Assembly: GCF_947499695.1 (NCBI RefSeq)
Contig: NZ_CANMPQ010000001.1
Span: forward strand, 124,001 to 188,000
DNA length: 64,000 nucleotides
DNA from: an uncultured Allomuricauda sp.
GTDB lineage: Bacteria; Bacteroidota; Bacteroidia; Flavobacteriales; Flavobacteriaceae
Reading direction: 5' to 3'
Program-made: the position numbers and the translations under genes
Shown here: one piece after another, positions 13,685 through 31,969 of the stretch
Layout: the number at the start of each line of letters is the position of its first letter
Position numbering within the stretch: position 1 is the first letter of the stretch
Notes under the pieces: model-generated
Seen by the model: the letters and a program-made list of their open reading frames with translations, nothing else
Told to the model about the DNA's origin: nothing
The model's database searches: none

Positions 13685-13829
13685 AAACTTCCCTTTTTGA
13701 TTGATTTTCTTTTCTCGATTTATATTAGCAGCAATCACCGTTGGAATTTTTTAAAATTAAATTCATAAATCACGGTGCTATCTTATCATTCTTAAATTAG
13801 TTTTTAAGTCAATACTGATTATTTAGCCA

Positions 13830-15597: not shown

Positions 15598-16464
15598 TTA
15601 AAAACTATTCCCACTTGATATTAGTTTTTCTTCTCCTTTCATGTCAACTACAAAAAGAGCCGGCAACCCCTCTTGAGTTCCTTCAGTAACATCACGTGTA
15701 AAGGCGATGTGCTTGTTGTCTGGAGACCAATTTGGATAGAAAGCTTGATAACCACTTTTACTAACTAATTTATGACTTTCCCCGCCCTCTGATGGCATGA
15801 CATGGACTTCGAAAATCCCATTTACAACTTTTATATAACAAATCTGCTTGCCATCTGAAGACCAACTTTGATGGAATTCTCCTTCAGGACTATTGGTTAG
15901 CCGCATTAATTTACCGCTCCCTATGGTAAGGGTATAGAGTTCTGCTTCGGCCTCTTCACTTATCTGATGTCTAAAAAGAATTTTAGAACCATCTGGCGAC
16001 CAACGGGGAGTACTCTCCAATGCCTCGGTGTGGGTGAGCTGTTTTAGGTTTGAACCATCATTATCCATTATATAAAGTTCTTGGTTGCCAGTTCTGTTAC
16101 TACTAAATACGATATGTTTCCCGTTTGGAGAATAATCGCCATCTTCACTGTTATGGTCACTTTCGGTAAGTTTTTCCAATCGCTCACCCTGTTTATTGAA
16201 ACGGTATATTTCATGATGTCCATCACGTACGGATGTGAAAATTATATGTTTTCCATCAGGTGACCAGCGAGGAGCGAAATCCCGTTCAGGGTGCCCTTCA
16301 AGAATCTTGAAATTAGTACCATCAATGTTTACCGTATAGATATCTTCGATGGTATGAATATAGAAAAAGGCGATTTTATTACCATCTGGTGACCAAACTT
16401 GCCCGAATCCAAATTGGAATCCAAGCCAGAACATTAATAAGAACATTGAAATACGCATATGCAT
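15598..16464 (-). CDS. Short secreted PD40/TolB-like beta-propeller protein
   Basis: A 288-residue protein with a hydrophobic N-terminal signal ending Gly-Phe-Gly-Gln at about residue 22. It runs straight into the first blade without a linker. About six PD40 blades follow: VWSPDGNKIAF, PRWSPDGKHIIF, GDYSPNGKHIVF, PRWSPDGSKILF, QSWSSDGKQICY and PNWSPDNKHIAF. This is the most regular of the three propellers in the region. Either Met1 or Met3 could be the start. The gene is divergent from the AraC-family regulator at 16741, which makes that regulator a candidate controller, though no operator was recognised. The function is unknown. Confidence 0.83.
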   Translation of the reverse strand: MHMRISMFLLMFWLGFQFGFGQVWSPDGNKIAFFYIHTIEDIYTVNIDGTNFKILEGHPERDFAPRWSPDGKHIIFTSVRDGHHEIYRFNKQGERLEKLTESDHNSEDGDYSPNGKHIVFSSNRTGNQELYIMDNDGSNLKQLTHTEALESTPRWSPDGSKILFRHQISEEAEAELYTLTIGSGKLMRLTNSPEGEFHQSWSSDGKQICYIKVVNGIFEVHVMPSEGGESHKLVSKSGYQAFYPNWSPDNKHIAFTRDVTEGTQEGLPALFVVDMKGEEKLISSGNSF

Positions 16465-18180: not shown

Positions 18181-19254
18181 CTACAAGCTAGGAAAAATGG
18201 TATAATCCTTTTGTTGTCCATTCGGCAAATTTTCCTTGGTGATAATCTCAATAGGAGATAAAATATCGGGTTGAAGTGGTGTATTGTATAACAAGAATTT
18301 CGAAAGACCGCTAACTGATTGGTACCCCTGTTGAAACGGTTTTTGTGAGATTAGAAAGGTGATTTTACCATCTGCCAGTGCATTCGAATTGTGCTCGGTA
18401 ATATCAAAACCAATTAAATAGGGAATTTTATTTCCGAAATCCTCGATGTGCTTGGCAATAATGTGTGCTCTACTATTAGGCACAAAGATTCCTTTAATTT
18501 CATTGCCTTCCTGTGGTAGCGAAGTAATTTTATCTCGGAACTTTTTGGCATCCCAAAAATCCTCTATCTCAATTTTGTGGTTGGTATTTTTCAGTTTTAG
18601 CGCTTTGAAATAATGTTCAAAACCTTTAATCCGTTTTGATATATTATTGACGTTGGAAAGGTTCGATCTTGAGTGAACCGTAAGGATGTCGTCATTCTCG
18701 TTTAGACAGAGCTGCATCAGCTTAGCTGCCAGGTAGCCACTTTTGAATGAATCTTGTCCAACAAAACAAAGATTGTCATGACCCTCCAAGGCAATATTTA
18801 AAAAAATGAACGGAATCTCTTTTTCCAACAATATCTGGGTAAGTTCCTTAGTCTCTTTTTTAAAAGTGGGAACGAGAACAACACCTTGAGGATTGGTTTT
18901 CAAAAGAAGACCGAACGAGTCCACATAGGATTTTGGGCTTTTTTGGTCAAAAGCGAATGTTTTAACATCAATTCCAAAACTCATAGCCTCTTCTCCAGCC
19001 TTATGAATGCCTTCAAGTGGTGATTTCCAAAATTGATTCTCTTCATCATAGCCCGGAAGCATAACGGCGATGGTAAACTTCTTTTTTAAAGCCAACGATT
19101 GAGCGATTCGGTTAACTTTAAAATCATGCTCCTTTAAAATTTCCCGTATCCGTTGTGCTGTTTTCTCAGAAACACCGGGTCTGTTATGTATCACTCTGTC
19201 TACCGTTCCAGGGGACACATTGGCAAGTTTTGCTATTTCCTTAATCGTTATCAT
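18181..19254 (-). CDS. LacI-family transcription regulator
   Basis: A 357-residue repressor or activator. The start at 19254 is chosen because MITIKEIAKLANVSPGTVDR is the conserved LacI helix-turn-helix; the frame continues 9 codons upstream. The hinge region RIAQSLALKKK follows. The periplasmic-binding-protein-like effector domain occupies residues about 60-345 and includes GIFVPNSRAHIIAKHIEDFG and YLIGFDITEHN. The gene is divergent from the SDR-UxuA-MIOX operon, with 139 bp between the two starts. A perfect palindrome with a central CpG lies in that gap. Local regulation of the inositol/uronate genes is therefore likely, with a sugar, uronate or inositol as effector (inference). Confidence 0.93.
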   Translation of the reverse strand: MITIKEIAKLANVSPGTVDRVIHNRPGVSEKTAQRIREILKEHDFKVNRIAQSLALKKKFTIAVMLPGYDEENQFWKSPLEGIHKAGEEAMSFGIDVKTFAFDQKSPKSYVDSFGLLLKTNPQGVVLVPTFKKETKELTQILLEKEIPFIFLNIALEGHDNLCFVGQDSFKSGYLAAKLMQLCLNENDDILTVHSRSNLSNVNNISKRIKGFEHYFKALKLKNTNHKIEIEDFWDAKKFRDKITSLPQEGNEIKGIFVPNSRAHIIAKHIEDFGNKIPYLIGFDITEHNSNALADGKITFLISQKPFQQGYQSVSGLSKFLLYNTPLQPDILSPIEIITKENLPNGQQKDYTIFPSL

Positions 19255-19307
19255 GCGTTGAACAAAGTTGTTAATATACAACCTTCAGTGATTTTCCAGG
19301 CCTAAGA

Positions 19308-19340: not shown

Positions 19341-19354
19341 CGTGTGCGCACACG
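19341..19354. promoter_or_regulatory. Probable LacI-family operator
   Basis: A perfect 14-bp palindrome, CGTGTGCGCACACG, with the central CpG typical of LacI/GalR-family operators. It lies between the divergent LacI-type gene and the SDR gene and overlaps the predicted transcription start, so a bound repressor would block initiation. A second short inverted repeat, GGTTTTGAAAACC, lies at 19381-19393 directly before the SDR start codon. Confidence 0.65.
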
Positions 19355-19393
19355 AAAATAACTAAAAATACGTAATACGAGGTTTTGAAAACC

Positions 19394-20200
19394 ATGTTCA
19401 ACTTAAAAAATAAGGTAGCCGTGATAACAGGAGGAACTGGGGTTTTGGGAAGCGAAGCAGCCCAGAGCCTAGCCCTTTCAGGTGTTAAGTTGGCGCTACT
19501 CACAACGAATAAACAGAACGGTACTGAGCTGGTAAGTTCTATTCGCAATAGCGGGGGTGAAGTAGTATTGTTGGAAGGAAATGTATTGTCAAAATCATCA
19601 ATGGAAGCTGTTCGTGATGTTGTTCTGGAAAAATTTGGAAGACTTGATATCCTTCTTAATGTTGCAGGAGGAAATTTACCCGGCGCTACCATACAACCGA
19701 ATCAAACCATCTTTGATATAGAATTAGATGATTTCAACCAGGTTACGGAATTGAACCTGAACGGAACGGTAATTCCCTCTTTGGTATTCGGAAAAGTGAT
19801 GGCCGACCAAGGCTCTGGAACGATCATAAACTATTCTTCTATGGCTGTACCACGCGTACTTACTCGAATTGCGGGGTATTCTGCATCCAAGGCTGCCATG
19901 GAAAATTTCACAAAATGGATGGCTGTGGAAATGGCCACAAAGTTTAATGATGGCATAAGGGTAAATGCAATCGCTCCTGGTTTCTTTATCGGAAATCAAA
20001 ACAGAAGCCTACTGCTGAATGAAGATGGAACATACACTGAACGTGGGGCTGACATCATTAGAAACACACCCATGGGCAGATTTGGGGAACCGGATGAGCT
20101 TAACGGCGCTTTACATTTTCTGTGCAGTGATGCATCAAAATTTGTTACGGGAGCTGTAATTCCTATTGATGGAGGGTTCAACATTTTTAGTGGGGTATGA
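19394..20200 (+). CDS. SDR oxidoreductase, probable D-mannonate (fructuronate) oxidoreductase
   Basis: A 268-residue short-chain dehydrogenase/reductase. The NAD(P)-binding motif TGGTGVLG is near residue 14 and the catalytic YSASK near residue 160, followed by the usual proline-glycine turn NAIAPGF and a C-terminal [10 protein letters not shown]. The ATG at 19394 is preferred; the frame also has a TTG three codons earlier. Its stop overlaps the next gene (uxuA) in an ATGA arrangement. By context it should interconvert D-fructuronate and D-mannonate, as the SDR-type UxuB enzymes of other bacteria do. The fold alone does not prove this substrate. Confidence 0.85.
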
Positions 20201-21396
20201 AAGAGTTAAGAATGAAACAAACGTGGAGATGGTATGGTCCAGATGACCCCATATCGCTTCAAGATGTTAAACAAACTGGAGCCACAGGCATAGTTACCGC
20301 ATTGCACCATATCACTAATGGAGAGGTTTGGCCAATTTTTGAAATCAGAAAGCGGAAGGAAATTATAGAATCGCAAGGATTGGAATGGACGGTTGTTGAA
20401 TCCGTACCTGTCCATGAAGATATTAAAACCCAAAAAGGAAACTTTCAGCAATTCATTGAAAACTATAAGGATAGCATTAGAAATTTGGCAAGTTGTGGAA
20501 TAAAAATAGTCTGTTACAATTTTATGCCCGTTTTGGATTGGACACGCACTTCACTGGATTATGAAATGCCGGATGGATCTAAGGCCTTGCTTTTTGAAAA
20601 GGACGTTTTTACTGCGTTTGATTTATTTGTATTGAAGAGATCTGAAGCGGAAAAGGAATATTCTATAGAGGAACAAGCAGATGCAAAATCCGCATTTGAT
20701 GTGATGAGTGACAAAGATATTGCCAAGCTGACCCAAAACATTTTAGCTGGACTGCCCGGGGCAGAAGAGGGGTACTCTTTGGAAAACTTTCAAGCCGTTT
20801 TGGACACCTATGAGGGAATCTCAAAATCAAAATTACAGGAGCATTTGGTTTATTTCCTCTCAGAAATCGTTCCTGTTGCCGAAGAAGTCGATGTACTTCT
20901 TTGTGCCCATCCGGATGACCCTCCTTTTTCGATTTTGGGATTGCCCAGAATTTTAAGCACGGAGGATGATTATCAATATCTGTTTGATAAGATTCCGTCG
21001 ATACATAACGGTATAACTTTCTGCACAGGGTCTTTAGGAGTTCGGGAAGACAATAATTTGTCACAAATCTTTAAAAAATTTGCGTATCGTGTTCATTTTC
21101 TGCATTTTAGAAATACCAGGCGGACGAAAAAAGGAGATTTTTACGAAGCCGATCATTTGGATGGAGATTCGGATATGCATGAAATAATAAAATTGGTGCT
21201 TTTGGAACAGCAGAGACGCATGAATGAAGGTCGAAAAGACATTGAAATACCGATGAGACCTGATCACGGACACCAAATGATAGATGACCTTAAGAAAAAA
21301 ACAAACCCCGGATATTCCTGTATTGGAAGATTAAGGGGGTTGGCGGAGCTTAGAGGATTGGAAATGGGTATAGCCAAATCTATATGGAACCAATAA
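20197..21396 (+). CDS. uxuA: Mannonate dehydratase
   Basis: Dehydrates D-mannonate to 2-keto-3-deoxy-D-gluconate, the last cluster-encoded step of the Ashwell uronate route. The opening [14 protein letters not shown] and [12 protein letters not shown] are almost the same as in E. coli UxuA, and the length (399 versus 394) agrees. Further conserved blocks are [13 protein letters not shown] and [17 protein letters not shown], with metal-binding Cys/His/Asp, and MRPDHGH near the C-terminus. The annotated ATG overlaps the SDR stop codon. The E. coli protein begins at the equivalent of Met6 (base 20212), so that start is also possible. KDG kinase and KDPG aldolase are not in the window and must be supplied from elsewhere. 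Confidence 0.96.
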
Positions 21397-21417
21397 AATT
21401 CAAAAAAACTATCGAAC

Positions 21418-22287
21418 ATGAAAAAGATGGATAAAAACAACCCTTTGGAATCTTTGGAGCATTGGGAAGATGATGTGCTAAAACGTTATCCTGACCCTGA
21501 TACACCAAAAAAGGAAAAGGAAGAATTTAGGGATTATCAAAATTCAGATAGGGTAGATACCGTTCGGGAATTTTATAAGCTTAACCACCAGTATCAGAAC
21601 TATGATTTTGTCTGCAAAAAGGAAAATGAGTTTTTGAAGTTTGATAAAAAAGAAATGTCACTTTGGGAAGCTGTCGACTTCCTTAACACTTTGATAGATG
21701 ATAGCGATCCCGATATAGATCTGGACCAATTACAACACCTTTTGCAGACTAGTGAAGCTATTCGAGCTGATGGCCATCCGGATTGGTTTGTGTTGACCGG
21801 TTTCTTGCATGATGTAGGTAAGGTACTATGCCTGTTCGGAGAACCGCAGTGGGCCGTCGTCGGAGATACCTTCCCTGTTGGATGCGAGTTCTCAGATAAA
21901 ATTGTATATCCAGAATTTTTCGAAACAAACATGGATTCTATCGATGATCGATATAACCATAAATATGGGATTTACGAAGAAAATTGTGGCTTGGATAATG
22001 TCAAAATGAGTTGGGGGCACGATGAATATCTCTATCAAATCATGAAAGACTATTTACCAGAACCTGCACTATATATGATTCGATACCATTCATTCTATGC
22101 ACAGCATCGTGAAAACGCTTACGACCATCTTATGAGTGAACATGACCATAAAATGTTCGAGTGGGTGAAAAAATTCAATCCGTATGACCTGTATTCAAAG
22201 GCCCCTGTACCACCAGATGTTAACACTCTAAAACCATATTATGAAGATCTAGTGGCAAAGTATTTACCTGAAAAATTGAGATTCTAG
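21418..22287 (+). CDS. myo-Inositol oxygenase (MIOX family)
   Basis: Cleaves the ring of myo-inositol with O2 to give D-glucuronate, using a mixed-valent diiron centre. The 289-residue protein matches animal MIOX (285 residues) over nearly its whole length. Shared blocks include EAVDFLNTLIDDSDPDID, LFGEPQWAVVGDTFPVGC, MSWGHDEYLYQ and a C-terminal PYYEDLVAKYLP. All six iron ligands are in place: His107, His131, Asp132, His201, His224 and Asp257, corresponding to human His98, His123, Asp124, His194, His220 and Asp253. Lys135 matches the substrate-binding human Lys127. It lies between uxuA and a sodium symporter in a tight plus-strand series. Codon 4 is a second possible start. A generic HD phosphohydrolase call would be wrong here. 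Confidence 0.95.
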   Translation: MKKMDKNNPLESLEHWEDDVLKRYPDPDTPKKEKEEFRDYQNSDRVDTVREFYKLNHQYQNYDFVCKKENEFLKFDKKEMSLWEAVDFLNTLIDDSDPDIDLDQLQHLLQTSEAIRADGHPDWFVLTGFLHDVGKVLCLFGEPQWAVVGDTFPVGCEFSDKIVYPEFFETNMDSIDDRYNHKYGIYEENCGLDNVKMSWGHDEYLYQIMKDYLPEPALYMIRYHSFYAQHRENAYDHLMSEHDHKMFEWVKKFNPYDLYSKAPVPPDVNTLKPYYEDLVAKYLPEKLRF

Positions 22288-22312
22288 CTTTTTAACCTAA
22301 CTATCCAATACA

Positions 22313-23878
22313 ATGCTGGCCACATATATAGGCTTTTTTGGATTCACCCTTTTCGTAATTGTCTATACCACGTATAGATTACGAAAAGACAACTTTAAGT
22401 CCGCCAAAGGATACTTCTTGGCTGGCAAAAGTCTTACAGGTCCCATTATTGCAGGGTCAATGATTCTGACCAATATTTCTACAGAACATCTAATAGGAAT
22501 GAACGGCAGTTCCTATAAGAATGGTATAATCGTAATTGCATGGGAAGTAACATCGGCAATTGCATTGGTAATCGCAGCTATATTTTTTATTCCCAAGTTC
22601 ATTAAAATGGGATTGGCCACCATTCCGCAATTTTTAGAAGAAAGATATGATGGCCTTACGAGGTCCATTGTTGCATTCCTCTTAATGCTATCCTTTGTAA
22701 TAACGCTATTGCCAATAGTTCTTTATTCTGGAGCTATCAATATTGAAAGTGTTTTTGACTTTTCCACAATGTTCGGGATTGGAAAAGAAAGAGCGATGCT
22801 TTTTACCGTGTTTGTGATAGGTATTATTGGCTCTATGTATGCCATTTTTGGTGGATTGAAAGCAGTGGCCTATTCTGATAGTTTAAACGGATTAGGACTT
22901 TTGCTAGGAGGACTGTTAATTCCAGCCATTGCATTATATCAAATCGGAGATGGGAACATTCTTAGCGGTTTGGGAACAGTGTATGATTTTGCACCTGACA
23001 AGTTCGATATTGTAGGAAGTGAAGATTCTGTAATGCCCTTTTCAACGCTGTTCACCGGTTTAATGATTAACCAATTATATTTCTGGGGAATGAATCAGGC
23101 TATCATACAAAGAGCTTTTGGTGCTAAAAATTTGGTAGAAGCACAAAAGGGCCTCATTTATACAGGAATACTTAAGCTGTTTGTCCCTTTGATTATCGTG
23201 TTGCCAGGATTGATCGCATATTATTATTTCCAAGACCAATATTTAAATACTCCTGATTTAATCTATCCACTGTTGGTTAAGAAGGTATTACCGACCTACC
23301 TTTTTGGATTTTTCGCTGCGGTTGTCCTAGGAGCTGTGCTGAGCACGTTCAATAGTGTGCTCAATTCAGCGAGCACCATATTTTGTTATGACATTTATAA
23401 AAAACTGATTAACAAGGAAGTTTCAGATGCAAGACTGGTTCATTTCGGTAAGATTACTTCTGTTATTCTTGCCGTACTTGCAATTGGCATTGCCCCTTTG
23501 GTTGCCTATGCCCCGGACGGATTGTACTTTTTGCTTCAAGAACTTAATGGTATCTTTTTTATTCCCATCTCCTCAGTGATTATTGCTGGAATATTCTTTA
23601 AGAATATAAACAAAACGGGAGCTAAGGCAGGTCTGTTTTTTGGCTTCGCATTTTATATTTTGACGACTTTCATTTTAGATGTTGATATCCATTTTATCCA
23701 TCTGTGGGGAATAGAATTTGTACTGAATTTTATCATTATGTTTTTAGTTTCAAAAATGTATCCTGAAGCTGCATACGTGGAACGAAAAGGAAGCGAAGAG
23801 AAGTCTTGGCGTTTTGTTAATGCTTTTGGAGTTGCACTTACAGCAATTACAATTTTGATTTATGTTTTATTATCATGA
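22313..23878 (+). CDS. Sodium:solute symporter (SSS/SGLT family)
   Basis: A 521-residue inner-membrane protein with about 14 hydrophobic segments, of the family that includes Na+/glucose and Na+/myo-inositol symporters. Early blocks fit the family: YFLAGKSLTGPIIAGSMILT, then a TEHLIGMNGSSYKNG segment and ATIPQFLEERYD. The last bases overlap the start of uxaC (ATGATG), so translation is probably coupled. Its position right after the MIOX gene makes myo-inositol the most attractive substrate, but glucuronate or another uronate cannot be excluded. No substrate-specific residues can be judged by eye. Confidence 0.92.
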   Translation: MLATYIGFFGFTLFVIVYTTYRLRKDNFKSAKGYFLAGKSLTGPIIAGSMILTNISTEHLIGMNGSSYKNGIIVIAWEVTSAIALVIAAIFFIPKFIKMGLATIPQFLEERYDGLTRSIVAFLLMLSFVITLLPIVLYSGAINIESVFDFSTMFGIGKERAMLFTVFVIGIIGSMYAIFGGLKAVAYSDSLNGLGLLLGGLLIPAIALYQIGDGNILSGLGTVYDFAPDKFDIVGSEDSVMPFSTLFTGLMINQLYFWGMNQAIIQRAFGAKNLVEAQKGLIYTGILKLFVPLIIVLPGLIAYYYFQDQYLNTPDLIYPLLVKKVLPTYLFGFFAAVVLGAVLSTFNSVLNSASTIFCYDIYKKLINKEVSDARLVHFGKITSVILAVLAIGIAPLVAYAPDGLYFLLQELNGIFFIPISSVIIAGIFFKNINKTGAKAGLFFGFAFYILTTFILDVDIHFIHLWGIEFVLNFIIMFLVSKMYPEAAYVERKGSEEKSWRFVNAFGVALTAITILIYVLLS

Positions 23879-25287
23879 TGGAAAAATCATTTATAAATAA
23901 AGATTTTTTATTGCAAAACAGCTTTGCTGAAGAACTGTACCACAGCTATGCAAAAGATTTACCCATAATAGATTACCACTGCCATCTTTCACCAGAAGAT
24001 ATTGCCATCAATCGTGAATTCAATACTATAACCGAGGCTTGGATTCATGGAGATCATTATAAATGGCGAGCCATGCGAACCGCAGGAGTTAGTGAGAAAT
24101 TTATAACAGGAAAGGCTTCCGACGAAGAAAAGTTCATGGCCTGGGTAAAAACAGTTCCGCAAACCATAAGAAATCCATTATACCATTGGACACATCTAGA
24201 ACTGGCTCGGTATTTTGATGTATTCGATCTATTGAATGAAAATAACGCCCAAAGTATATACCATATAACCAACGAAAAGTTGAGGTCAAAAGAATTTTCC
24301 TGTTCATCCTTACTTGCTAAAATGAAAGTTGAGGTAGTGTGCACCACAGAAGACCCAACAGATTCTTTGGAGTACCATCAAAAAATGACTCAAAATGACT
24401 CAGATTTTCTGATGAGTACTTCTTTCAGACCAGACAAGGCTTTATTAATCGGTGCTGAGAACTTTAATGGATATATCGATAAGTTGTCAGAAGTGTCCAA
24501 CATAGAGATTAGTTCTTACGATGAGCTGTGCGAAGCCTTAGCCAAACGAATAGCTTATTTTGATACCAATGGATGTACTTTATCGGATCATGGATTGGAA
24601 AGTATACCCTTTGAACTTTCAACACATAAGGAAGTTTCAGCCATTTTCAAGAAAAAAAGAAGTGGAAAACAACTTGCTGAAAAAGAAATCAAACAATTTG
24701 AAACTGCTCTTTTGCTGTTTCTTTCTGAGACCTATCATGATTACAATTGGATACAGCAATTCCATTTGGGTCCATTACGAAACAATAATACCAGAATGTT
24801 GAGGACCTTGGGTCCGGACACAGGTTGGGATTCCATAGGTGATTTTTCACATGGTAGAAGTCTATCTCAATTTTTGGATGCGTTGGATTCCAAAAACAAA
24901 TTGACCAAGACCATCTTATACAATTCCAATCCAGCGGATAACGAAGTTTTCGCTGCTATGACAGGCAATTTTAATGATGGTACTAGTAAAGGGAAAGTGC
25001 AATATGGTTCAGGATGGTGGTTTTTGGACCAAAAAGATGGTATTACCAGACAGTTGAATGCGCTATCCAATGTAGGACTGATAAGCTGTTTTATTGGAAT
25101 GCTTACCGATTCTCGAAGCTTTCTGTCTTTTCCAAGGCATGAATATTTTAGAAGAATACTATGTAATCTTTTTGGGGAAGAAATTCAGAATGGAGAGTTG
25201 CCAAATGACATGGATTTGATTGGAAAGACCATTCAAGACATCTGTTATTTTAATGCAAAGGAATACTTCAATTTTAAAAATGATTAA
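23875..25287 (+). CDS. uxaC: Uronate (glucuronate) isomerase
   Basis: Isomerises D-glucuronate to D-fructuronate (and D-galacturonate to D-tagaturonate). The length of 470 residues equals that of the E. coli enzyme. The metal-binding His35 and His37 lie in DYHCHLSPEDIA. Other typical blocks are EVVCTTEDPTDSLEYH, the LGPLRNNN motif and LTDSRSFLSFPRHEYFRRILC near the C-terminus. It joins the MIOX product to the SDR/UxuA steps. The start overlaps the symporter stop, and the last codons overlap the DctP start. Confidence 0.97.
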   Translation: MMEKSFINKDFLLQNSFAEELYHSYAKDLPIIDYHCHLSPEDIAINREFNTITEAWIHGDHYKWRAMRTAGVSEKFITGKASDEEKFMAWVKTVPQTIRNPLYHWTHLELARYFDVFDLLNENNAQSIYHITNEKLRSKEFSCSSLLAKMKVEVVCTTEDPTDSLEYHQKMTQNDSDFLMSTSFRPDKALLIGAENFNGYIDKLSEVSNIEISSYDELCEALAKRIAYFDTNGCTLSDHGLESIPFELSTHKEVSAIFKKKRSGKQLAEKEIKQFETALLLFLSETYHDYNWIQQFHLGPLRNNNTRMLRTLGPDTGWDSIGDFSHGRSLSQFLDALDSKNKLTKTILYNSNPADNEVFAAMTGNFNDGTSKGKVQYGSGWWFLDQKDGITRQLNALSNVGLISCFIGMLTDSRSFLSFPRHEYFRRILCNLFGEEIQNGELPNDMDLIGKTIQDICYFNAKEYFNFKND

Positions 25288-26263
25288 AATAAAGTCCAAA
25301 TATCTCTGCCTTGTAGTTTTCATCATTCTTTTTATGGGATGCAATAAGACGAGGACCACAAAGACCATTAAGTTGGCTCACGGATTGGACATAAACCATT
25401 CCGTTCACAAGGCTTTGGTAAAAATGGGTGAAGATCTGGCAAGACTTTCTAGTGGAGGACTTTCGGTAAAGATTTACCCGAATCAGCAATTGGGAACAGA
25501 AAGACAGATAATGGAATTGTTGCAGATTGGCAGCTTGGACATGACCAAGGTTTCAGCAGCGACACTCGAAAATTTTGCACCAAAAACCAAAGTCTTGGGA
25601 CTGCCGTACTTGTTTCGGGATAGGGAACATTCATTTAAAGTCTTTGATGGCCCCATTGGTCAGGAATTACTGAATGACGGTAAAAAATATTGGTTAAAAG
25701 GCCTTGGATTTTATGATGCAGGGAGCCGAAGTTTTTATACTAAGGAAATACCCGTACGGCACCCTGATGACCTAAAAGGTCAAAAAATCAGGGTGATGCC
25801 CAGTGTTACTGCTATGGAAATGGTAAGAGGATTTGGAGGCTCTCCCACACCGATATCTTGGGGAGAATTGTATACATCACTTCAACAAGGTGTTGTTGAT
25901 GGAGCGGAGAACAATCCCCCCAGCTTTTATCTATCAAAGCATTATGAAATATGCAAGTACTATTCTTTAAACGAGCATACCTTTTCTCCTGACGTTGTGA
26001 TTATCGGCACCCATTTTTGGGATGAACTTACGAAACAGGAACAGGATTGGCTTCAGCAAGCAGTGGATGCATCTGTGGTTTACCAGAGGAAATTATGGGC
26101 AAAAGCCGAAGCCGAAGCTCTAGAGGCCATTCAAAAATCGGGAGTACAGATTGTAAGGCCTAATAAAATTCCTTTTTCAGAAAAAACACACCAATTATAT
26201 GAGGAGTACCAGAGTGATAAAACCCTTCAGACATTGATTCAACAAATAAGAGCCGTAAACTGA
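25280..26263 (+). CDS. TRAP transporter substrate-binding lipoprotein DctP
   Basis: Extracytoplasmic solute receptor of a TRAP transporter, 327 residues. The start at 25280 begins a lipoprotein signal ending Leu-Phe-Met-Gly-Cys; the frame runs 20 codons upstream inside uxaC without signal character. Family signatures include KIYPNQQLGTERQIMELLQIGSLDM (residues near 65-90), the substrate-carboxylate-binding region GQKIRVMPSV, and WGELYTSLQQGVVDGAENN. The conserved Arg in KIRVM normally binds an organic acid, which favours a uronate or other sugar acid over uncharged inositol. Many DctP proteins are freely periplasmic, so a lipid anchor is worth noting. Confidence 0.94.
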   Translation: MIKIKSKYLCLVVFIILFMGCNKTRTTKTIKLAHGLDINHSVHKALVKMGEDLARLSSGGLSVKIYPNQQLGTERQIMELLQIGSLDMTKVSAATLENFAPKTKVLGLPYLFRDREHSFKVFDGPIGQELLNDGKKYWLKGLGFYDAGSRSFYTKEIPVRHPDDLKGQKIRVMPSVTAMEMVRGFGGSPTPISWGELYTSLQQGVVDGAENNPPSFYLSKHYEICKYYSLNEHTFSPDVVIIGTHFWDELTKQEQDWLQQAVDASVVYQRKLWAKAEAEALEAIQKSGVQIVRPNKIPFSEKTHQLYEEYQSDKTLQTLIQQIRAVN

Positions 26264-26271
26264 AACTGGGA

Positions 26272-26730
26272 ATGAGAAAAGCAATAGATAAAATACTGGG
26301 TAGTGCATTGATTGTTATTATGGCGATGATGGTATTAAATGTATTGTGGCAAGTATTTACGCGGTTTGTTGTTGGTACACCAAGCTCATTTACTGATGAG
26401 TTGGCTCGTTACCTCATGATTTGGGTCGGAATCTTGGGTGCTGCATATGCAGCAGGTCAAGATATGCATGTTGCTATAGACGTCCTCCCTCAAAAATTGA
26501 AAAAGACAACGCAAATGAAATTGTCAATTATGGTTAAACTGATTATAGCACTGTTCGCTTTAGTTGCGATGATTGTTGGTGGGGGTAGGTTGGTTTATAT
26601 CACCTACGTACTTGACCAACTGTCACCGGCACTTCAGATACCGCTGGCATATGTGTATTTGGTGATTCCCATAAGTGGATTTTTAATTATGTATTACAAG
26701 ATTTCAGATATTTTAAAACCCACTACTTGA
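26272..26730 (+). CDS. TRAP transporter small membrane subunit DctQ
   Basis: A 152-residue protein with four hydrophobic segments, the small integral subunit of a TRAP transporter. The pattern NVLWQVFTRFVVGTPSSFTDELARYLMIWVG contains the usual Phe-x-Arg-Phe-Val and Glu-Leu-Ala-Arg features of DctQ (quoted in part from residues about 24-55). It starts 8 bp after dctP and its stop overlaps the dctM start (TGATG), so the three subunits form one unit. Confidence 0.93.
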   Translation: MRKAIDKILGSALIVIMAMMVLNVLWQVFTRFVVGTPSSFTDELARYLMIWVGILGAAYAAGQDMHVAIDVLPQKLKKTTQMKLSIMVKLIIALFALVAMIVGGGRLVYITYVLDQLSPALQIPLAYVYLVIPISGFLIMYYKISDILKPTT

Positions 26731-28034
26731 TGGAGTATTTTCCAATTTTAGTGTTGATTATTAGCTTTTTGGGCTTGTTGGCGATAGGAACTCCAGTTGC
26801 TTGGAGTATTTCCGTTTCGGCTTTATTGACCATGCTAGTGAGTATTCCTTTTCTACCAGCCACAACTACAGTTGCACAAAGAATGGGAGCAGGACTTGAT
26901 AGTTTTGCGCTATTGGCGATTCCTTTCTTCATATTGGCTGGCAATCTAATGAACAAAGGTGGAATGGCGCATCGGCTTATTGCTTTTGCAAAAACCTTGG
27001 TGGGGGCACTTCCAGGAGGATTGGCGTTGATAAATATAGTCGCTGCCATGCTCATGGGAGCTATTGCCGGTTCCGCTATGGCATCTGCATCCGCTATGGG
27101 GAGCATTCTAGGTCCAGAAATGGAGAAAGAAGGATACTCAAAAGAATTTGGTGCAGCCGTCAATATCACATCAGCAACAACCGGATTGATCATCCCCCCA
27201 AGCAATATCTTAATTGTGTACTCCTTAGCAAGTGGTGGAATCTCTATTGGAGCATTGTTCCTCGCAGGATATGTGCCTGGCATCTTAACAGGAGTATTTT
27301 TAATGATAGTTGCCCTTCTATGGGCCAAAAGGAAGGGGTATACCAGTAAAACTAAAAAAGGCAGCATTGGCGTTTCCGAGATTGCAAAAACCTTTGTTAG
27401 TGCATTCCCAAGCCTCTTATTACTTTTCATTGTTATAGGAGGAATCGTGGCCGGTATATTTACTGCAACAGAAGCTTCTGCCATAGCCGTTTTATACTCC
27501 ATGCTTTTAGGTTTTCTGTATAAGGAAATCTCATTCAAGAATTTACCTAATATTTTATTGGAATCATCTATTACCACTGCCATTGTGATGCTGTTGATAG
27601 CGGCATCGATAAGTATGTCATGGGCGATGTCTTATGAAAATATTCCTCAGGCCACCAGTGATGTGTTATTGGGAATTAGCGATAACAAGTTCGTAGTTCT
27701 TTTGATTATCAACGCCATTTTACTTTTTGTTGGAATTTTTATGGATATAACACCGGCGGTACTCATTTTTACTCCGATTTTTTTACCTGTGGTCACTAAA
27801 CTGGGAATTGACCCGGTTCATTTTGGAATCATAATGATTTTGAATCTCTGCATTGGATTATGTACTCCTCCAGTCGGGTCTGTACTTTTCGTAGGGATCG
27901 GTGTGGCAAAAACTTCAATTCAGAAAGTGATACGACCCTTATTACCATTGTTTTTGGCGATGATCATTGCGCTATTTCTTATTACCTATATCCCACAATT
28001 GACTATGTGGTTGCCTAATTTATTTGATGTATAA
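26730..28034 (+). CDS. TRAP transporter large permease subunit DctM
   Basis: A 434-residue polytopic protein, the transport channel of the TRAP system driven by the sodium gradient. It has about 12 hydrophobic segments. Family motifs include FALLAIPFFILAGNLMN, GAIAGSAMASASAMGSI, TTGLIIPPSNILIVYSLASG and a C-terminal GLCTPPVGSVLFVG. The ATG overlaps the stop of dctQ. With dctP and dctQ it makes a complete TRAP transporter next to uxaC, most simply read as uronate uptake. Confidence 0.95.
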   Translation: MEYFPILVLIISFLGLLAIGTPVAWSISVSALLTMLVSIPFLPATTTVAQRMGAGLDSFALLAIPFFILAGNLMNKGGMAHRLIAFAKTLVGALPGGLALINIVAAMLMGAIAGSAMASASAMGSILGPEMEKEGYSKEFGAAVNITSATTGLIIPPSNILIVYSLASGGISIGALFLAGYVPGILTGVFLMIVALLWAKRKGYTSKTKKGSIGVSEIAKTFVSAFPSLLLLFIVIGGIVAGIFTATEASAIAVLYSMLLGFLYKEISFKNLPNILLESSITTAIVMLLIAASISMSWAMSYENIPQATSDVLLGISDNKFVVLLIINAILLFVGIFMDITPAVLIFTPIFLPVVTKLGIDPVHFGIIMILNLCIGLCTPPVGSVLFVGIGVAKTSIQKVIRPLLPLFLAMIIALFLITYIPQLTMWLPNLFDV

Positions 28035-28044
28035 AGAACAAAAG

Positions 28045-29445
28045 ATGAATAGTTTAAACTATATAAAAGTGAAGAATAAACAAAGAGGCCTATATCAGCT
28101 GTCCATAATTTTGATGCTGACAATGATAGTAGGTTGTGAACAAAAACCTAAAGACAATGCCCCTTGGGTGTCAATTTTTGATGGTGAAACCTTAAAAGGA
28201 TGGACAGTAAAAGGAGGTAACGCGGAATATGCGGTGAATGATGAGGCCATAGTTGGGATTACAAAGCACGATACGCCCAATACCTTTCTTACTTCCGATA
28301 AGATGTATGGGGACTTTATTTTGGAATTGGATTATCTGGTGGATTCTACAATGAATTCAGGAATTCAAATACGGAGTAACAGTATCCCTGATTATTACAA
28401 TGGGCGTGTACATGGCTATCAAATAGAGATTGACCCATCAGAACGAGCTTGGAGCGCCGGAATTTATGAAGAAGGCCGCAGAGGGTGGCTGAATCCATTA
28501 TCCAAAAACAGTGCAGCTCAAAAGGCTTTCAAGCAAAATGAATGGAACCATTATCGGATAGAAGCTATTGGTGATACTATAAAAACTTGGATTAATAATG
28601 TGCCAGCGGCATATGTAATTGATGATGCTACTGCATCCGGGTTTATTGGTTTGCAGGTCCACAGTATAGGCGAAAAACAGGAAGCAGGAACTGAAATACG
28701 TTGGAAAAATATTCGGATTCTTACCGAAGATTTGAAAAAGTATAGCACAAAATCCCTGCTGCAACCTGTAATTACGAAAAATAGACTCACCGAACACGAG
28801 CAAAATGAAGGGTGGACTATGCTTTGGGATGGTGAGACAACTACGGGTTGGCGCGGAGCAAAACTGGACCATTTTCCAGAATCAGGATGGACAATTGAAA
28901 ATGGCGAATTGACCGTTCTTGCCTCTGGAGGCGGAGAATCCGAAGCTGGTGGTGATATAGTCACGGAAACACAATATGACAATTTTGAACTTAAACTTGA
29001 ATTTAGGATTACGGAAGGAGCCAATAGCGGCATCAAATATTATGTGAATACCGATTTGAATAAGGGTGCTGGATCTTCCATAGGACTTGAATTCCAAATT
29101 TTGGACGATGAACGCCATCCAGATGCCAAATTGGGTAATCATGCAGGCAGCCGAACCCTGGCATCACTTTATGACCTCATTCAAGCAGATACTGCAAAAT
29201 ATGTAAAGCCCATTGGAGAATGGAATGCGGCACGCATCATTTCAAATAACAACCATGTGGAGCACTGGTTGAATGGAATCAAGGTATTGGAATATGAACG
29301 TAAAAGTGACGAATACCGAAAATTGGTCTCAGAGAGCAAGTATGTGACATGGCCTCAATTTGGAGAAGCAGACAAAGGAAATATTCTACTTCAGGACCAT
29401 GGAGATAAGGTGGCTTTCAGAAATATAAAAATCAAACAACTTTAA
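28045..29445 (+). CDS. Tandem DUF1080 (3-keto-disaccharide hydrolase-like) lipoprotein
   Basis: A 466-residue lipoprotein with two DUF1080 domains. The N-terminus has a lipoprotein signal ending Met-Ile-Val-Gly-Cys at about residue 31; a start 6 codons earlier is possible. Domain 1 begins at SIFDGETLKGW and spans about residues 40-225. Domain 2 begins at MLWDGETTTGWRG and spans about 255-466. Both contain the typical NSGIQIRS / NSGIKYYV and IGLQVH / LEFQILDD strands. DUF1080 proteins have a concanavalin-like fold, and some act on 3-keto-glycosides made by Gfo/Idh/MocA enzymes. Two such oxidoreductases follow directly, so this trio probably works on one oxidised sugar. The substrate is not known. 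Confidence 0.9.
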   Translation: MNSLNYIKVKNKQRGLYQLSIILMLTMIVGCEQKPKDNAPWVSIFDGETLKGWTVKGGNAEYAVNDEAIVGITKHDTPNTFLTSDKMYGDFILELDYLVDSTMNSGIQIRSNSIPDYYNGRVHGYQIEIDPSERAWSAGIYEEGRRGWLNPLSKNSAAQKAFKQNEWNHYRIEAIGDTIKTWINNVPAAYVIDDATASGFIGLQVHSIGEKQEAGTEIRWKNIRILTEDLKKYSTKSLLQPVITKNRLTEHEQNEGWTMLWDGETTTGWRGAKLDHFPESGWTIENGELTVLASGGGESEAGGDIVTETQYDNFELKLEFRITEGANSGIKYYVNTDLNKGAGSSIGLEFQILDDERHPDAKLGNHAGSRTLASLYDLIQADTAKYVKPIGEWNAARIISNNNHVEHWLNGIKVLEYERKSDEYRKLVSESKYVTWPQFGEADKGNILLQDHGDKVAFRNIKIKQL

Positions 29446-29455
29446 ACCTAAAATA

Positions 29456-30787
29456 ATGGGTACGAGAAGAAATTTTATTAAAAAGACAACAGCGGGGACT
29501 ACAGGTTTAGCCTTAAGTGGAATGATACTGCCTAACACCGCGTACACTAACATTTTGGGAGCTAACGACCGTCTTGGTGTTGCTGTCATTGGAGTTAGAA
29601 GTCGAGCCAAAGCACATTGCATCGCAATTCATCAAGATCCAAATGCTAGAATTCTGTATAGCTGTGATGTAGATGACAAAATTATTGAAGAACACAATAC
29701 TTGGTGTCAAGATAATATTGGTTATGTTCCCAAAGTTGAAAAAGATTTTAGAAAAATCTTAGAAGATAAAGACGTTGATGCCGTCTTTATAGCTACTCCA
29801 GAACATTGGCATGCCCCCATGTCCATTATGGCTATGCAGGCAGGAAAACACGTTTATGTTGAAAAACCATGCAGTCATAATCCACATGAAAATGAACTGT
29901 TGGTCGCTGCGCAAAATAAATATGGCAAAAAAGTGCAGATGGGAAACCAGCAAAGATCAGCTAGGACATCTGCCTCGGCCATAACGGATATCAGAAACGG
30001 AATTATTGGAGAAGTATACAAGGGGGAAGCCTATTATTCCAATAACCGAGGTTCTATTGGAAAAGGGAATAAAATAAACGTACCCAAAACTTTGGATTGG
30101 GACCTTTGGCAAGGACCGGCGCCACGGGAGGATTATAGAGACAATGTACATCCCTATAATTGGCATTGGTTCCGGACATGGGGAACAGGGGAAATTCATA
30201 ATAATGGTACCCATGAGATTGATATTTGTCGATGGGCGCTAGGAGTGGATCTTCCAGAGAGTGTGACCTCTTTTGGCGGAAAATATACCTATAATGATGA
30301 TTGGGAATTTGTAGACAATCAGCAGGTGACCTATTCCTTTCCAGGCAATAAATTTATTACTTGGACCGGACATAGTAGAGGTATCATGAAACCAGAACGC
30401 CCGGGAAGGGGAGTTACAATTTATGGAAGCAAGGGAAGTATTCAACTCGATAGAAATTTTTACAAATTATACGATTTGGCGGGCAATCCGGTCAGGATGG
30501 AGTTTGAGACGAACCAAAGTGCAACCACCAATACACAGGGAATAGGTGGATTGGATGTAGATCATGTAGGTAATTTTTTCAATGCCATTAGAAAAGATGA
30601 ATCTCTGTATGCTGACATCAATGACGCCAGTATCTCAACCATGTTGTGCCACTTGGGAAATATGGCGCAAGACGCCGGGCACACACTGGAAGTGGATACA
30701 AAGACCGGAAGAGTGGTCAATGATGATACAATTATGACGAAAAGTTGGAAACGGGAATATGCAAAAGGTTGGGAGCCTAAACTTTAA
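29456..30787 (+). CDS. Gfo/Idh/MocA oxidoreductase with twin-arginine signal
   Basis: A 443-residue NAD(P)-dependent sugar or cyclitol oxidoreductase of the Gfo/Idh/MocA family. Residues 1-30 look like a Tat signal (RRNFIKKTTAG, then a hydrophobic stretch), which implies export with bound cofactor. The dinucleotide-binding region begins at LGVAVIGVRSRA. The catalytic EKP motif is present in HVYVEKPCSHN. Further along, GTGEIHNNGTHEIDICRWALG carries the conserved Asp and His of the active site. It lies 10 bp after the DUF1080 gene. It could oxidise a glycoside or inositol to the 3-keto (2-keto) form in the periplasm; this is inferred from neighbours and family. Confidence 0.92.
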   Translation: MGTRRNFIKKTTAGTTGLALSGMILPNTAYTNILGANDRLGVAVIGVRSRAKAHCIAIHQDPNARILYSCDVDDKIIEEHNTWCQDNIGYVPKVEKDFRKILEDKDVDAVFIATPEHWHAPMSIMAMQAGKHVYVEKPCSHNPHENELLVAAQNKYGKKVQMGNQQRSARTSASAITDIRNGIIGEVYKGEAYYSNNRGSIGKGNKINVPKTLDWDLWQGPAPREDYRDNVHPYNWHWFRTWGTGEIHNNGTHEIDICRWALGVDLPESVTSFGGKYTYNDDWEFVDNQQVTYSFPGNKFITWTGHSRGIMKPERPGRGVTIYGSKGSIQLDRNFYKLYDLAGNPVRMEFETNQSATTNTQGIGGLDVDHVGNFFNAIRKDESLYADINDASISTMLCHLGNMAQDAGHTLEVDTKTGRVVNDDTIMTKSWKREYAKGWEPKL

Positions 30788-30790
30788 GAG

Positions 30791-31969
30791 ATGAAACGAA
30801 GAGATTTTGTGTCCAAAACGGGGTTGGCCATAGCAGGAGTGTCTGCGATGAATGCCGGAGTACTCCATCCATCAAAAGAAGATAGTATAAATATTGGTGT
30901 TATTGGCACTGGAGACCGTGGTGGTGGACTGATTCCAATTATAAATAAAATTGAAGGTCTAAATGTCTCCGCTTGTTGCGATGTACTGCCTTTTAGATTG
31001 GAAAGTGCATTGAAAAAAGTCGAGGGCAAGGCAAAGGCATATTCAGATTATACAGCGCTGTTGAATGATAAAAAAATAGATGCAGTTTTGATTGCCACTC
31101 CATTTAGTGAGCACTCCCATATAGCTCTTGACGCTTTGGATGCCGGAAAACATGTTTACTGCGAGAAAACTATGGTTAAGGGATATGAATCCATTGAAAG
31201 TTTGATTAAAAAAGCTTCACAATCAAAAAATATTTTTCAGACTGGCCACCAATACCATAGCTCTAGATTGTATACCCATCTTGTAGATTTAATTCAGAAT
31301 GGGAAAATAGGTAAGATTACAGCTATCGAATGTCAATGGAATAGAAATGGTGATTGGCGAAGACCTGTGCCGAGTCCAGAATTCGAAAGAGCTATTAATT
31401 GGAGAATGTATAAACAATTCTCAGGAGGTTTACTGGCCGAGCTTTGTTCACACCAATTGGATTTTTGTAATTGGGTATTAGACGCAGTTCCAATAAAGGT
31501 GGTAGGAGACGGCGGCATCGACTATTGGAAAGATGGTCGAGAAACATACGATAATGTTCATATGATTTATTCCTATCCCAACGGAGTACGAGCGAAATTC
31601 ACCTGTTTGACCAGCAATTCCAAAGATGATTATCAGATTAAAGTGTTAGGGGACAAGGGAACAATAACTATTGATTACACCGAGGCTTGGTTTTATCCAG
31701 AGAAGAAGGAAGAATCCAGACAAATAGGTGAAGTCGATGGTGTTTCTGGTGCAACTGTCAAATGGGACCAAGAAAAAGGGATTCCAATCACTGTAGAACA
31801 TTTGGATCCAAGTAAACAGGCATTACTTGATTTTAGAGATAGTATTGTGACCAACTCGATGCCAAAATCGAATGTGATAAGCGGAGCAAAAGCAGCCATT
31901 TGTGTACAAATGGGCCTCGATGCCCTTCACACTGGAAAAGTAGTTGATTGGAAGGGAGGATTAATCTGA
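30791..31969 (+). CDS. Gfo/Idh/MocA oxidoreductase, second copy, with twin-arginine-like signal
   Basis: A 392-residue Gfo/Idh/MocA-family protein 3 bp behind its relative. The N-terminus KRRDFVSKTGLAIAG again fits a Tat signal. The nucleotide-binding glycine motif is NIGVIGTGDRGGG. The usual EKP is replaced by EKT in HVYCEKTMVKG: the catalytic Lys is kept but Pro is lost. SGGLLAELCSHQLDFCNW supplies the conserved Asp and His region. It differs enough from the preceding protein to act on another substrate or in the reverse direction. It is the last gene of the series and is convergent with purA. Confidence 0.9.
   Translation: MKRRDFVSKTGLAIAGVSAMNAGVLHPSKEDSINIGVIGTGDRGGGLIPIINKIEGLNVSACCDVLPFRLESALKKVEGKAKAYSDYTALLNDKKIDAVLIATPFSEHSHIALDALDAGKHVYCEKTMVKGYESIESLIKKASQSKNIFQTGHQYHSSRLYTHLVDLIQNGKIGKITAIECQWNRNGDWRRPVPSPEFERAINWRMYKQFSGGLLAELCSHQLDFCNWVLDAVPIKVVGDGGIDYWKDGRETYDNVHMIYSYPNGVRAKFTCLTSNSKDDYQIKVLGDKGTITIDYTEAWFYPEKKEESRQIGEVDGVSGATVKWDQEKGIPITVEHLDPSKQALLDFRDSIVTNSMPKSNVISGAKAAICVQMGLDALHTGKVVDWKGGLI

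Follow-up and report, generated by a model that had tools for sequence, protein, structure and literature searches.

In this study, a stretch of 64,000 nucleotides from contig NZ_CANMPQ010000001.1 of an uncultured Allomuricauda sp. (the window) was analysed for a gene of the myo-inositol oxygenase (MIOX) family that lies inside a cluster of genes for hexuronate catabolism. The cluster consists of eleven genes on the same (+) strand (19385–31969) with a divergent lacI alongside, in the order SDR-uxuA-MIOX-SSS-uxaC-dctP-dctQ-dctM-DUF1080-gfo1-gfo2, where SSS denotes a sodium:solute symporter. The gaps from SDR to gfo2 range from −11 to +25 nt when dctP is started at the ATG at 25280. With the TTG start of dctP (25220) the range is −68 to +25 nt; the ATG start shrinks the overlap to 8 nt, and the TTG start looks wrong. 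MIOX is flanked by gaps of 21 and 25 nt, and the step from SSS to uxaC is −4 nt. The original prediction had placed a MIOX with six diiron ligands at 21418–22287, together with uxuA, uxaC and an upstream SDR gene, and all were found in those places (with 359.2 bits to PF05153 and mapped ligands for MIOX, and a start at ATG 19394 or TTG 19385 for the SDR gene). It had overlooked the SSS gene between MIOX and uxaC, the TRAP, DUF1080 and two Gfo/Idh genes, the divergent lacI and a palindrome.

The MIOX-family protein

The MIOX open reading frame (ORF) in the window's ORF list encodes 289 residues, and the match to PF05153 covers profile positions 2–249 of 249 (E 1.6e-107, 359.2 bits against a cut-off of 25). 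A PDB search returned two distinct sequences at E 1e-3 or better, both inositol oxygenases: 2huo (E 1.5e-81) and 2ibn (E 1.2e-78), which we take to be the mouse and human enzymes, respectively. The alignment with 2huo contains 133 identities in 263 aligned residues (51%). Fifteen positions of the mouse enzyme were taken as functional; they include H98, H123, D124, H194, H220 and D253 as the ligands of the HD-type diiron site. Fourteen of the fifteen are identical in the window protein (P0001), including all six iron ligands, the equivalents of which are H107, H131, D132, H201, H224 and D257. The sole differing position is mouse E86, which is D95 in the window protein. The six ligands are also invariant in an alignment of 11 sequences (A1). 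Among the matches listed, the closest named homologues are from Flagellimonas and Allomuricauda (91–93% identity). The genome (3.73 Mb in 14 contigs, 99.71% complete) contains one copy of MIOX, with a G+C content of 0.384 compared with 0.387 for the window. The window MIOX is predicted to cleave myo-inositol with O2, which would yield D-glucuronate.

Uptake, downstream catabolism and the search for iol genes

The best PDB match of the SSS protein is 2xq2, a sodium/glucose cotransporter (E 3.5e-61), followed by sodium/glucose cotransporters 1 and 2. Inositol is its predicted cargo from its pairing with MIOX only, and SSS is the probable missing piece of the inositol route. For DctP (query from 25292), the best 60 of 100 PDB matches include 4n8y (1st), 4x8r (3rd), 4mhf (6th) and 4n91 (10th). 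In the literature, 4n8y and 4x8r are described as bound to galacturonate and glucuronate (PMC11668362), and 4mhf and 4n91 as glucuronate binders (PMC7660916). Since SSS is nearest to sodium/glucose cotransporters and DctP to hexuronate binders, the cluster would offer one entry for a neutral polyol or sugar and another for a uronate.

The genes for UxaC, mannonate oxidoreductase and UxuA all pass curated cut-offs (NF002794, NF006132 and TIGR00695, respectively; Table 1). A 2-keto-3-deoxy-6-phosphogluconate (KDPG) aldolase is encoded elsewhere in the genome (C1:262.5 kb), scoring 278.8 against a cut-off of 275 with NF005499 and 153.7, just below the cut-off of 156.05, with TIGR01182. The adjoining PfkB kinase passes its Pfam cut-off, and its nearest model is a KDPG-aldolase/kinase fusion, matched in the kinase half; with the IolC model it reaches 95 of 300 bits.

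A genome-wide search covering iolD, iolE and iolG, and not iolB and iolC, found none over its NCBIfam cut-off. The best scores were 244.1 of 715 bits for iolD and 61.4 of 290 bits for iolE, each with two weak places, and 108.9 of 355 bits for iolG, with 15 weak places. The iolD model passed in Bacillus subtilis, Caulobacter vibrioides and Corynebacterium glutamicum, which served as controls. The original prediction of a pathway without iol genes therefore stands for iolD, iolE and iolG at these cut-offs. IolG was also considered as an identity for gfo1 and gfo2 and rejected, both proteins scoring far below the TIGR04380 cut-off.

Table 1. Predicted features of the cluster and their profile or structural matches (positions in the window).
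Feature	Position	Strand	Evidence
LacI-family regulator, divergent	18181..19281	-	Pfam LacI 51.4 bits (cut-off 27); Peripla_BP_4 114.7 (cut-off 35.1)
Perfect 14-bp palindrome CGTGTGCGCACACG, predicted LacI operator	19341..19354	.	between lacI and SDR
SDR-family D-mannonate oxidoreductase (UxuB function)	19385..20200 (TTG; alternative ATG 19394)	+	NF006132 364 bits (cut-off 281)
UxuA, mannonate dehydratase	20197..21396	+	TIGR00695 592.6 bits (cut-off 199.55); PF03786 445.8 bits
MIOX-family protein (myo-inositol oxygenase family)	21418..22287	+	PF05153 359.2 bits; PDB 2huo E 1.5e-81; metal ligands kept
SGLT-like sodium:solute symporter (SSS), predicted inositol importer	22313..23878	+	NF007790 666 bits (cut-off 401); PF00474 193.2 bits
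UxaC, uronate (glucuronate) isomerase	23875..25287	+	PF02614 676 bits; NF002794 601 bits (cut-off 387)
DctP, TRAP substrate-binding protein, lipoprotein-like N-terminus	25280..26263 (ATG; longer TTG ORF from 25220)	+	PF03480 279 bits
DctQ, small TRAP permease	26272..26730	+	PF04290 94.5 bits
DctM, large TRAP permease	26727..28034	+	PF06808 403.9 bits; TIGR00786 454 bits
DUF1080 / 3-keto-disaccharide hydrolase, two domains	28024..29445	+	PF06439 299 bits (2 stretches)
gfo1, Gfo/Idh/MocA oxidoreductase, putative Tat-like N-terminus, not IolG	29456..30787	+	PF01408 55.8 bits; TIGR04380 82.7 bits (cut-off 355)
gfo2, Gfo/Idh/MocA oxidoreductase, putative Tat-like N-terminus, not IolG	30791..31969	+	TIGR04380 90.2 bits (cut-off 355)

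Among solved structures, gfo1 is nearest to 8tdf (named dehydrogenase) and 8tdh (predicted dehydrogenases); it also weakly matches 8tdi, named glucuronide-3-dehydrogenase (E 4e-4). Together, DUF1080 and the two Gfo/Idh proteins with Tat-like N-termini (28024–31969) represent a possible extracytoplasmic 3-keto route by which glycosides might be split to release sugars or uronates for import by TRAP. Three PD40 beta-propeller proteins, one long (8272–10140) and two short (12776–13738 and 15598–16464), are encoded in the roughly 11 kb that precede the operon.

Genome-wide associations of MIOX with UxaC and PI-PLC

UxaC and PI-PLC-C1 were compared between all 51 MIOX genomes (23 of the genus and 28 from a draw across the phylum, 83–100% complete) and 29 of the 37 MIOX-free congeners, the eight left out (G014, G024, G027, G030, G038, G041, G055 and G059) being 71–96% complete. 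UxaC passes its cut-off in 51 of 51 MIOX genomes versus 15 of 29 MIOX-free congeners; within the genus the difference is 23/23 versus 15/29 (Fisher p 6e-5, a value that ignores relatedness). The other 14 MIOX-free congeners lack UxaC as well, and uronate isomerase and MIOX may be gained and lost together.

Of the 51 MIOX genomes, 17 have PI-PLC-C1 over its cut-off, compared with none of the 29 MIOX-free congeners; three sub-cut-off matches in MIOX-free genomes (G001, G029 and G044) were left uncounted. Within the genus the counts are 7/23 and 0/29 (Fisher p 0.002, again ignoring relatedness), and in 6 of the 23 genus loci the gene lies about 7 kb from MIOX. Since PI-PLC would release inositol phosphate, its association with MIOX points to inositol as the substrate, and it suggests that eukaryotic membrane lipids are an inositol source in some relatives.

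Distribution and gene neighbourhoods

The genus sample contained 60 genomes, including that of the window. MIOX is present in 23, the neighbourhoods of all 23 were read, and SSS lies directly downstream of MIOX in every one. Three settings occur. The first (setting A) is the uronate operon, with the order SDR-uxuA-MIOX-SSS-uxaC-TRAP-DUF1080-Gfo-Gfo in the window and in L133, L135 and L136, and a shorter form, MIOX-SSS-uxaC-TRAP, in L131. The L133 SDR shares only 43% identity with that of the window. The second (setting B; L116–L119, L121 and L137) contains PI-PLC-C1, a metallophosphoesterase and a hybrid two-component regulator followed by MIOX and SSS. In the remaining twelve genus loci (setting C) the pair stands in housekeeping surroundings, eleven of them (L120, L122–L129, L132 and L134) sharing their flanking genes, among which are a putative DtxR-like regulator, a putative TonB receptor-like gene and putative carotenoid-type genes.

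MIOX and SSS of the window are 92% identical to those of L135 and L136, yet the UxaC encoded between the same neighbours is only 63% identical, and in L133 56%. The uxaC gene thus looks to have been replaced, or to be fast-evolving, inside a conserved operon.

A wider search matched at least 593 stretches and confirmed at least 463 MIOX loci, of which the best 80, a set biased to close kin, were examined; many of these loci end before 10 kb on one side. SSS is near MIOX in 62 of the 80 and directly downstream in 37. The SDR-uxuA-MIOX-SSS order also occurs in three Maribacter loci (L040, L051 and L054). In L075 and L085 the gene set of the window is reordered, with uxuA-SDR-Gfo2 on the strand opposite to MIOX and DUF1080-Gfo1-uxaC on the MIOX strand, without SSS; L075 also has dctP and dctQ on the MIOX strand. 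The clusters of genes beside MIOX in the best 80 loci, each cluster named from one representative, include metallophosphoesterase (18), PI-PLC-C1 (9, a lower bound because several loci end in or beside the PI-PLC gene) and GH115 alpha-glucuronidase (8).

Seven of the eight GH115 loci also contain PI-PLC-C1 and metallophosphoesterase; these are L025, L050, L057, L058, L071, L084 and L089 (within the left 6 kb). The setting B loci share PI-PLC and metallophosphoesterase and have the hybrid two-component regulator. From their gene content, the PI-PLC/MIOX loci are candidate loci for the removal of inositol, and of glucuronate, from inositol lipids. MIOX also lies within about 9 kb of PI-PLC genes on Granulicella and Catenovulum plasmids, and no PI-PLC was found near MIOX in the stretch read of a Gemmatirosa plasmid. 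A literature search of titles and abstract starts found no bacterial PI-PLC/GH115 loci tied to inositol-phosphorylceramide, and we note this lipid as a lead for the target of these loci.

A conserved palindrome between lacI and the SDR gene

The core of the palindrome, GTGTGCGCACAC, is found a single time in the window (shuffles that tolerate one mismatch give an expectation of 0.02) and in one place in the whole 3.73-Mb genome. By rough arithmetic at a G+C content near 0.38, about half a site is expected by chance. The case for an operator depends on the conserved place of the palindrome, not on its rarity. A regulon-wide motif was considered and rejected, as a single place in 3.73 Mb makes the element look local. 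Among 155 retrieved loci, GTGNGCGCNCAC is present in four (L049, L058, L135 and L136), all of which read GTGTGCGCACAC and carry it in the interval from the LacI start to the SDR start. LacI is next to the operon in L135 and L136 too, at 69–70% identity, and the LacI of L049 and L058 is only 41–42% identical to that of the window. In L049 and L058 the MIOX-SSS pair lies outside the palindrome operon, with uxuA and SDR on the opposite strand. The operon is present in L133, but neither lacI nor the palindrome was found at that locus. The palindrome resembles a conserved operator site for the uronate genes, to which LacI is predicted to bind, and in the window MIOX would have come under this operator.

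Phylogeny of MIOX

At least 8000 candidates passed E 1e-3 in the MIOX homologue search, and every named one among the 120 listed is bacterial. A midpoint-rooted tree of 60 rows was built from the window protein, 11 of the 22 other genus loci, 18 phylum-draw loci, 10 best-80 loci, three plasmid loci and 17 database proteins. It has several long branches, and its eukaryotes are vertebrates and two protist rows, plants and fungi being left out. The window MIOX groups with L133, L135 and L136 (100/99), deep inside a 38-row Bacteroidota clade (99/97), to which Gemmatirosa plus Granulicella form the sister group. The next rows to join are two divergent Bacteroidota proteins (L154 and L155). The five vertebrates form their own branch (99/98) outside the Bacteroidota clade, and with this rooting that branch is the next neighbour of the bacterial group holding the window MIOX. 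On the far side of the tree, MIOX of the Francisella/Catenovulum type is accompanied by two eukaryote rows, one of them a dinoflagellate. As judged from the 11 other genus loci in the tree, settings A and B share a region of the Bacteroidota clade, and C lies in a different one. The tree speaks for an old bacterial MIOX branch, and any old transfer may have gone in either direction.

L154 and L155 (from phylum-draw genomes G237 and G193) represent a divergent second Bacteroidota lineage, 47–49% identical to the window MIOX. In both, an SSS gene (56% identical) is upstream of MIOX, so that the pair recurs in reversed order.

Prevalence of MIOX and iolD in the phylum

The phylum draw consisted of 395 genomes, the window's own included. 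MIOX passes its cut-off in 29, of which 28 lie outside the genus (18 neighbourhoods were retrieved), and iolD in 18; no genome has both. A total of 63 genomes match MIOX at E 1e-3, and the 34 with weak, partial matches below the cut-off were left out of the count. Disjointness of MIOX and iolD as a rule was rejected, zero overlap of 29 and 18 in 395 being within chance (Fisher p 0.38).

Discussion

We propose that MIOX and the SGLT-type symporter within the hexuronate cluster probably serve the import of inositol, its cleavage with O2 and its degradation to 2-keto-3-deoxygluconate (KDG). SSS would import myo-inositol and MIOX would cleave it with O2 to D-glucuronate, which UxaC would convert to fructuronate, the SDR to mannonate and UxuA to KDG. 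The TRAP system may bring in ready-made uronate, and the DUF1080 and Gfo genes may free sugars outside the cytoplasm. LacI would bind the palindrome at 19341–19354 and repress the operon until a uronate- or inositol-derived inducer is present. MIOX would thus be a second entrance, neutral and O2-dependent, to a uronate catabolic operon. This proposal is based on the MIOX residues, the pathway enzymes over their cut-offs, the tight spacing, the arrangement kept in congeners and the association with UxaC, as well as on the pairing with SSS, the association with PI-PLC, the lack of iolD, iolE and iolG over cut-off, the KDPG aldolase and the function of a Flavobacterium johnsoniae MIOX in yeast (see below). 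The inositol-to-KDG order of the original prediction is well supported by sequence and by the presence of UxaC in 51 of 51 MIOX genomes. The observation was right, the locus is richer than had been noted, and the pathway is very likely as it was proposed.

Several results weigh against the proposal. UxuA is near MIOX in only 12 of the best 80 loci and UxaC in only 3, and UxaC is within the retrieved stretch in just 5 of the 23 genus loci; in three further genus genomes (G006, G020 and G025) it is 25–27 kb away. In the phylum-draw loci outside the genus, SSS is directly downstream of MIOX in 0 of 18 and anywhere near it in 7. The PfkB kinase beside the aldolase is below the cut-off of every KDG-kinase model listed, and a search of the window's own genome found no PI-PLC-C1, which led us to reject PI-PLC as the inositol source of this organism. 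Since UxaC and UxuA are rarely near MIOX, membership in the operon is a local arrangement. Uronate-operon loci are in the minority, and direct MIOX-SSS pairing is at its strongest in the genus and its near kin.

These distributions also bear on the alternative that the operon serves glucuronate or glucuronides and that MIOX-SSS is a mobile two-gene insert, inositol being used when present without being the purpose of the operon and induction perhaps not being shared. The pair does occur in three unrelated settings in the genus, with 18 of 23 loci lacking both uxuA and uxaC in the retrieved stretch, and in the tree the Bacteroidota clade does not keep the MIOX rows of a single genus together. 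However, the short gaps on both sides of MIOX, the −4 nt step from SSS to uxaC and the shared strand argue against an insert, as does the arrangement kept in L133, L135 and L136, and we regard it as unlikely. It is quite improbable that the main substrate of the MIOX homologue is another cyclitol (chiro- or scyllo-inositol) or an inositol glycoside instead of free myo-inositol. Family membership leaves the stereochemistry unfixed and a 3-keto-glycoside module lies downstream, but 14 of the 15 mapped mouse positions are identical and the PI-PLC association points to myo-inositol.

We give very little weight to an iolG/iolE/iolD route elsewhere in the genome that would make MIOX a minor side branch; weak model matches exist (iolG in 15 places, iolE and iolD in 2 each), but their best scores are far below the cut-offs, and the control genomes pass that of iolD. 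A recent horizontal acquisition from an animal or other eukaryote is likewise highly improbable. The protein matches mouse MIOX at half of the aligned residues, and the vertebrates are on the Bacteroidota side of the midpoint-rooted tree and not on the gammaproteobacterial/protist side. Nevertheless, the window row is nested deep in the 38-row Bacteroidota clade and the vertebrates are separate in this tree without plants and fungi, on which grounds a recent transfer from an animal was rejected, and the G+C content of the gene is close to that of the window. Of the two origins that the original prediction had entertained, an underestimated bacterial branch thus fares better than transfer from an animal, which the tree of eukaryotic and bacterial MIOX does not support if recent; any older transfer may have gone in either direction.

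The Ashwell hexuronate pathway consists of UxaC, UxuB and UxuA, and the window cluster shares these functions downstream of glucuronate, to which MIOX would add its neutral, O2-dependent entrance. The bacterial iol pathway (IolG, IolE, IolD, IolB, IolC and IolA) starts with dehydrogenation and ring hydrolysis and needs no O2. It has inositol as carbon source in common with the route proposed here, but IolG, IolE and IolD are not over cut-off in the window's genome. In animals, MIOX is accompanied by SGLT/SMIT-type transport, the glucuronate enters the glucuronate-xylulose pathway, and the genes are not known to form an operon; the window likewise has a MIOX-family protein and an SGLT-family transporter.

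A uronate (glucuronate) operon bearing MIOX (F7308_1388-1396) was described in Francisella in 2012, when its authors saw no bacterial homologue outside the genus (PMC3479022). As in the window, a MIOX-family gene is in one cluster with uxuA, uxaC and a uxuB, and a route from inositol through glucuronate to the Entner-Doudoroff pathway was already proposed there (PMC3479022). The Francisella cluster has its own D-xylose-proton symporter, RhiT, alpha-glucosidase and 490-residue UxuB, with KdgK and KdgA inside (PMC3479022), whereas that of the window has an SGLT-type symporter, an SDR-type UxuB, TRAP, DUF1080/Gfo and lacI with the palindrome, and its kinase and aldolase are elsewhere. In our tree, the F. 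philomiragia MIOX belongs to a separate gammaproteobacterial clade, unlike that of the window. FjMiox of Flavobacterium johnsoniae, a Bacteroidota MIOX like that of the window, was shown to work in yeast, where it was among the two best in a screen for glucaric acid (Marques 2020, cited in the review PMC12076931), and has been used as a biotechnological part (PMC12076931). The view in the original prediction that MIOX is classically eukaryotic is thus out of date, given the at least 8000 candidates, FjMiox (PMC12076931) and the Francisella operon (PMC3479022). A MIOX operon of this kind is not unique, and its MIOX is most probably not a recent animal gene. Our literature search, which covered few subscription papers, found no title or abstract start naming a Bacteroidota MIOX operon.

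A broader and more tentative idea, which we hold with somewhat less than even confidence, is that MIOX-SSS is a portable two-gene inositol cassette and the main inositol route of aerobic Bacteroidota. It would plug into uronate operons, as in the window, and into PI-PLC lipid-headgroup loci (with phosphatase and, in some loci, GH115 alpha-glucuronidase). At the latter loci, inositol and glucuronate would be removed from inositol lipids of eukaryotes and both channelled into a single uronate pathway, in place of the iol pathway by which inositol use in bacteria is currently defined.

For the specialist, the surprise is the prevalence of MIOX over iolD in the phylum. In 2022, a survey covering 193,757 genomes took iol gene clusters as its marker of inositol use, which it reported for only 3% of the 2,227 Bacteroidetes species and 2% of the 810 Flavobacteriaceae (PMC9430895); in its main text, the word oxygenase appears once, for Cryptococcus (PMC9430895). 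If the MIOX proteins are active, a count based on iol genes would overlook more than half of our sample's candidate inositol users, and inositol use by these bacteria would be O2-dependent and would yield carbon for the uronate pathway.

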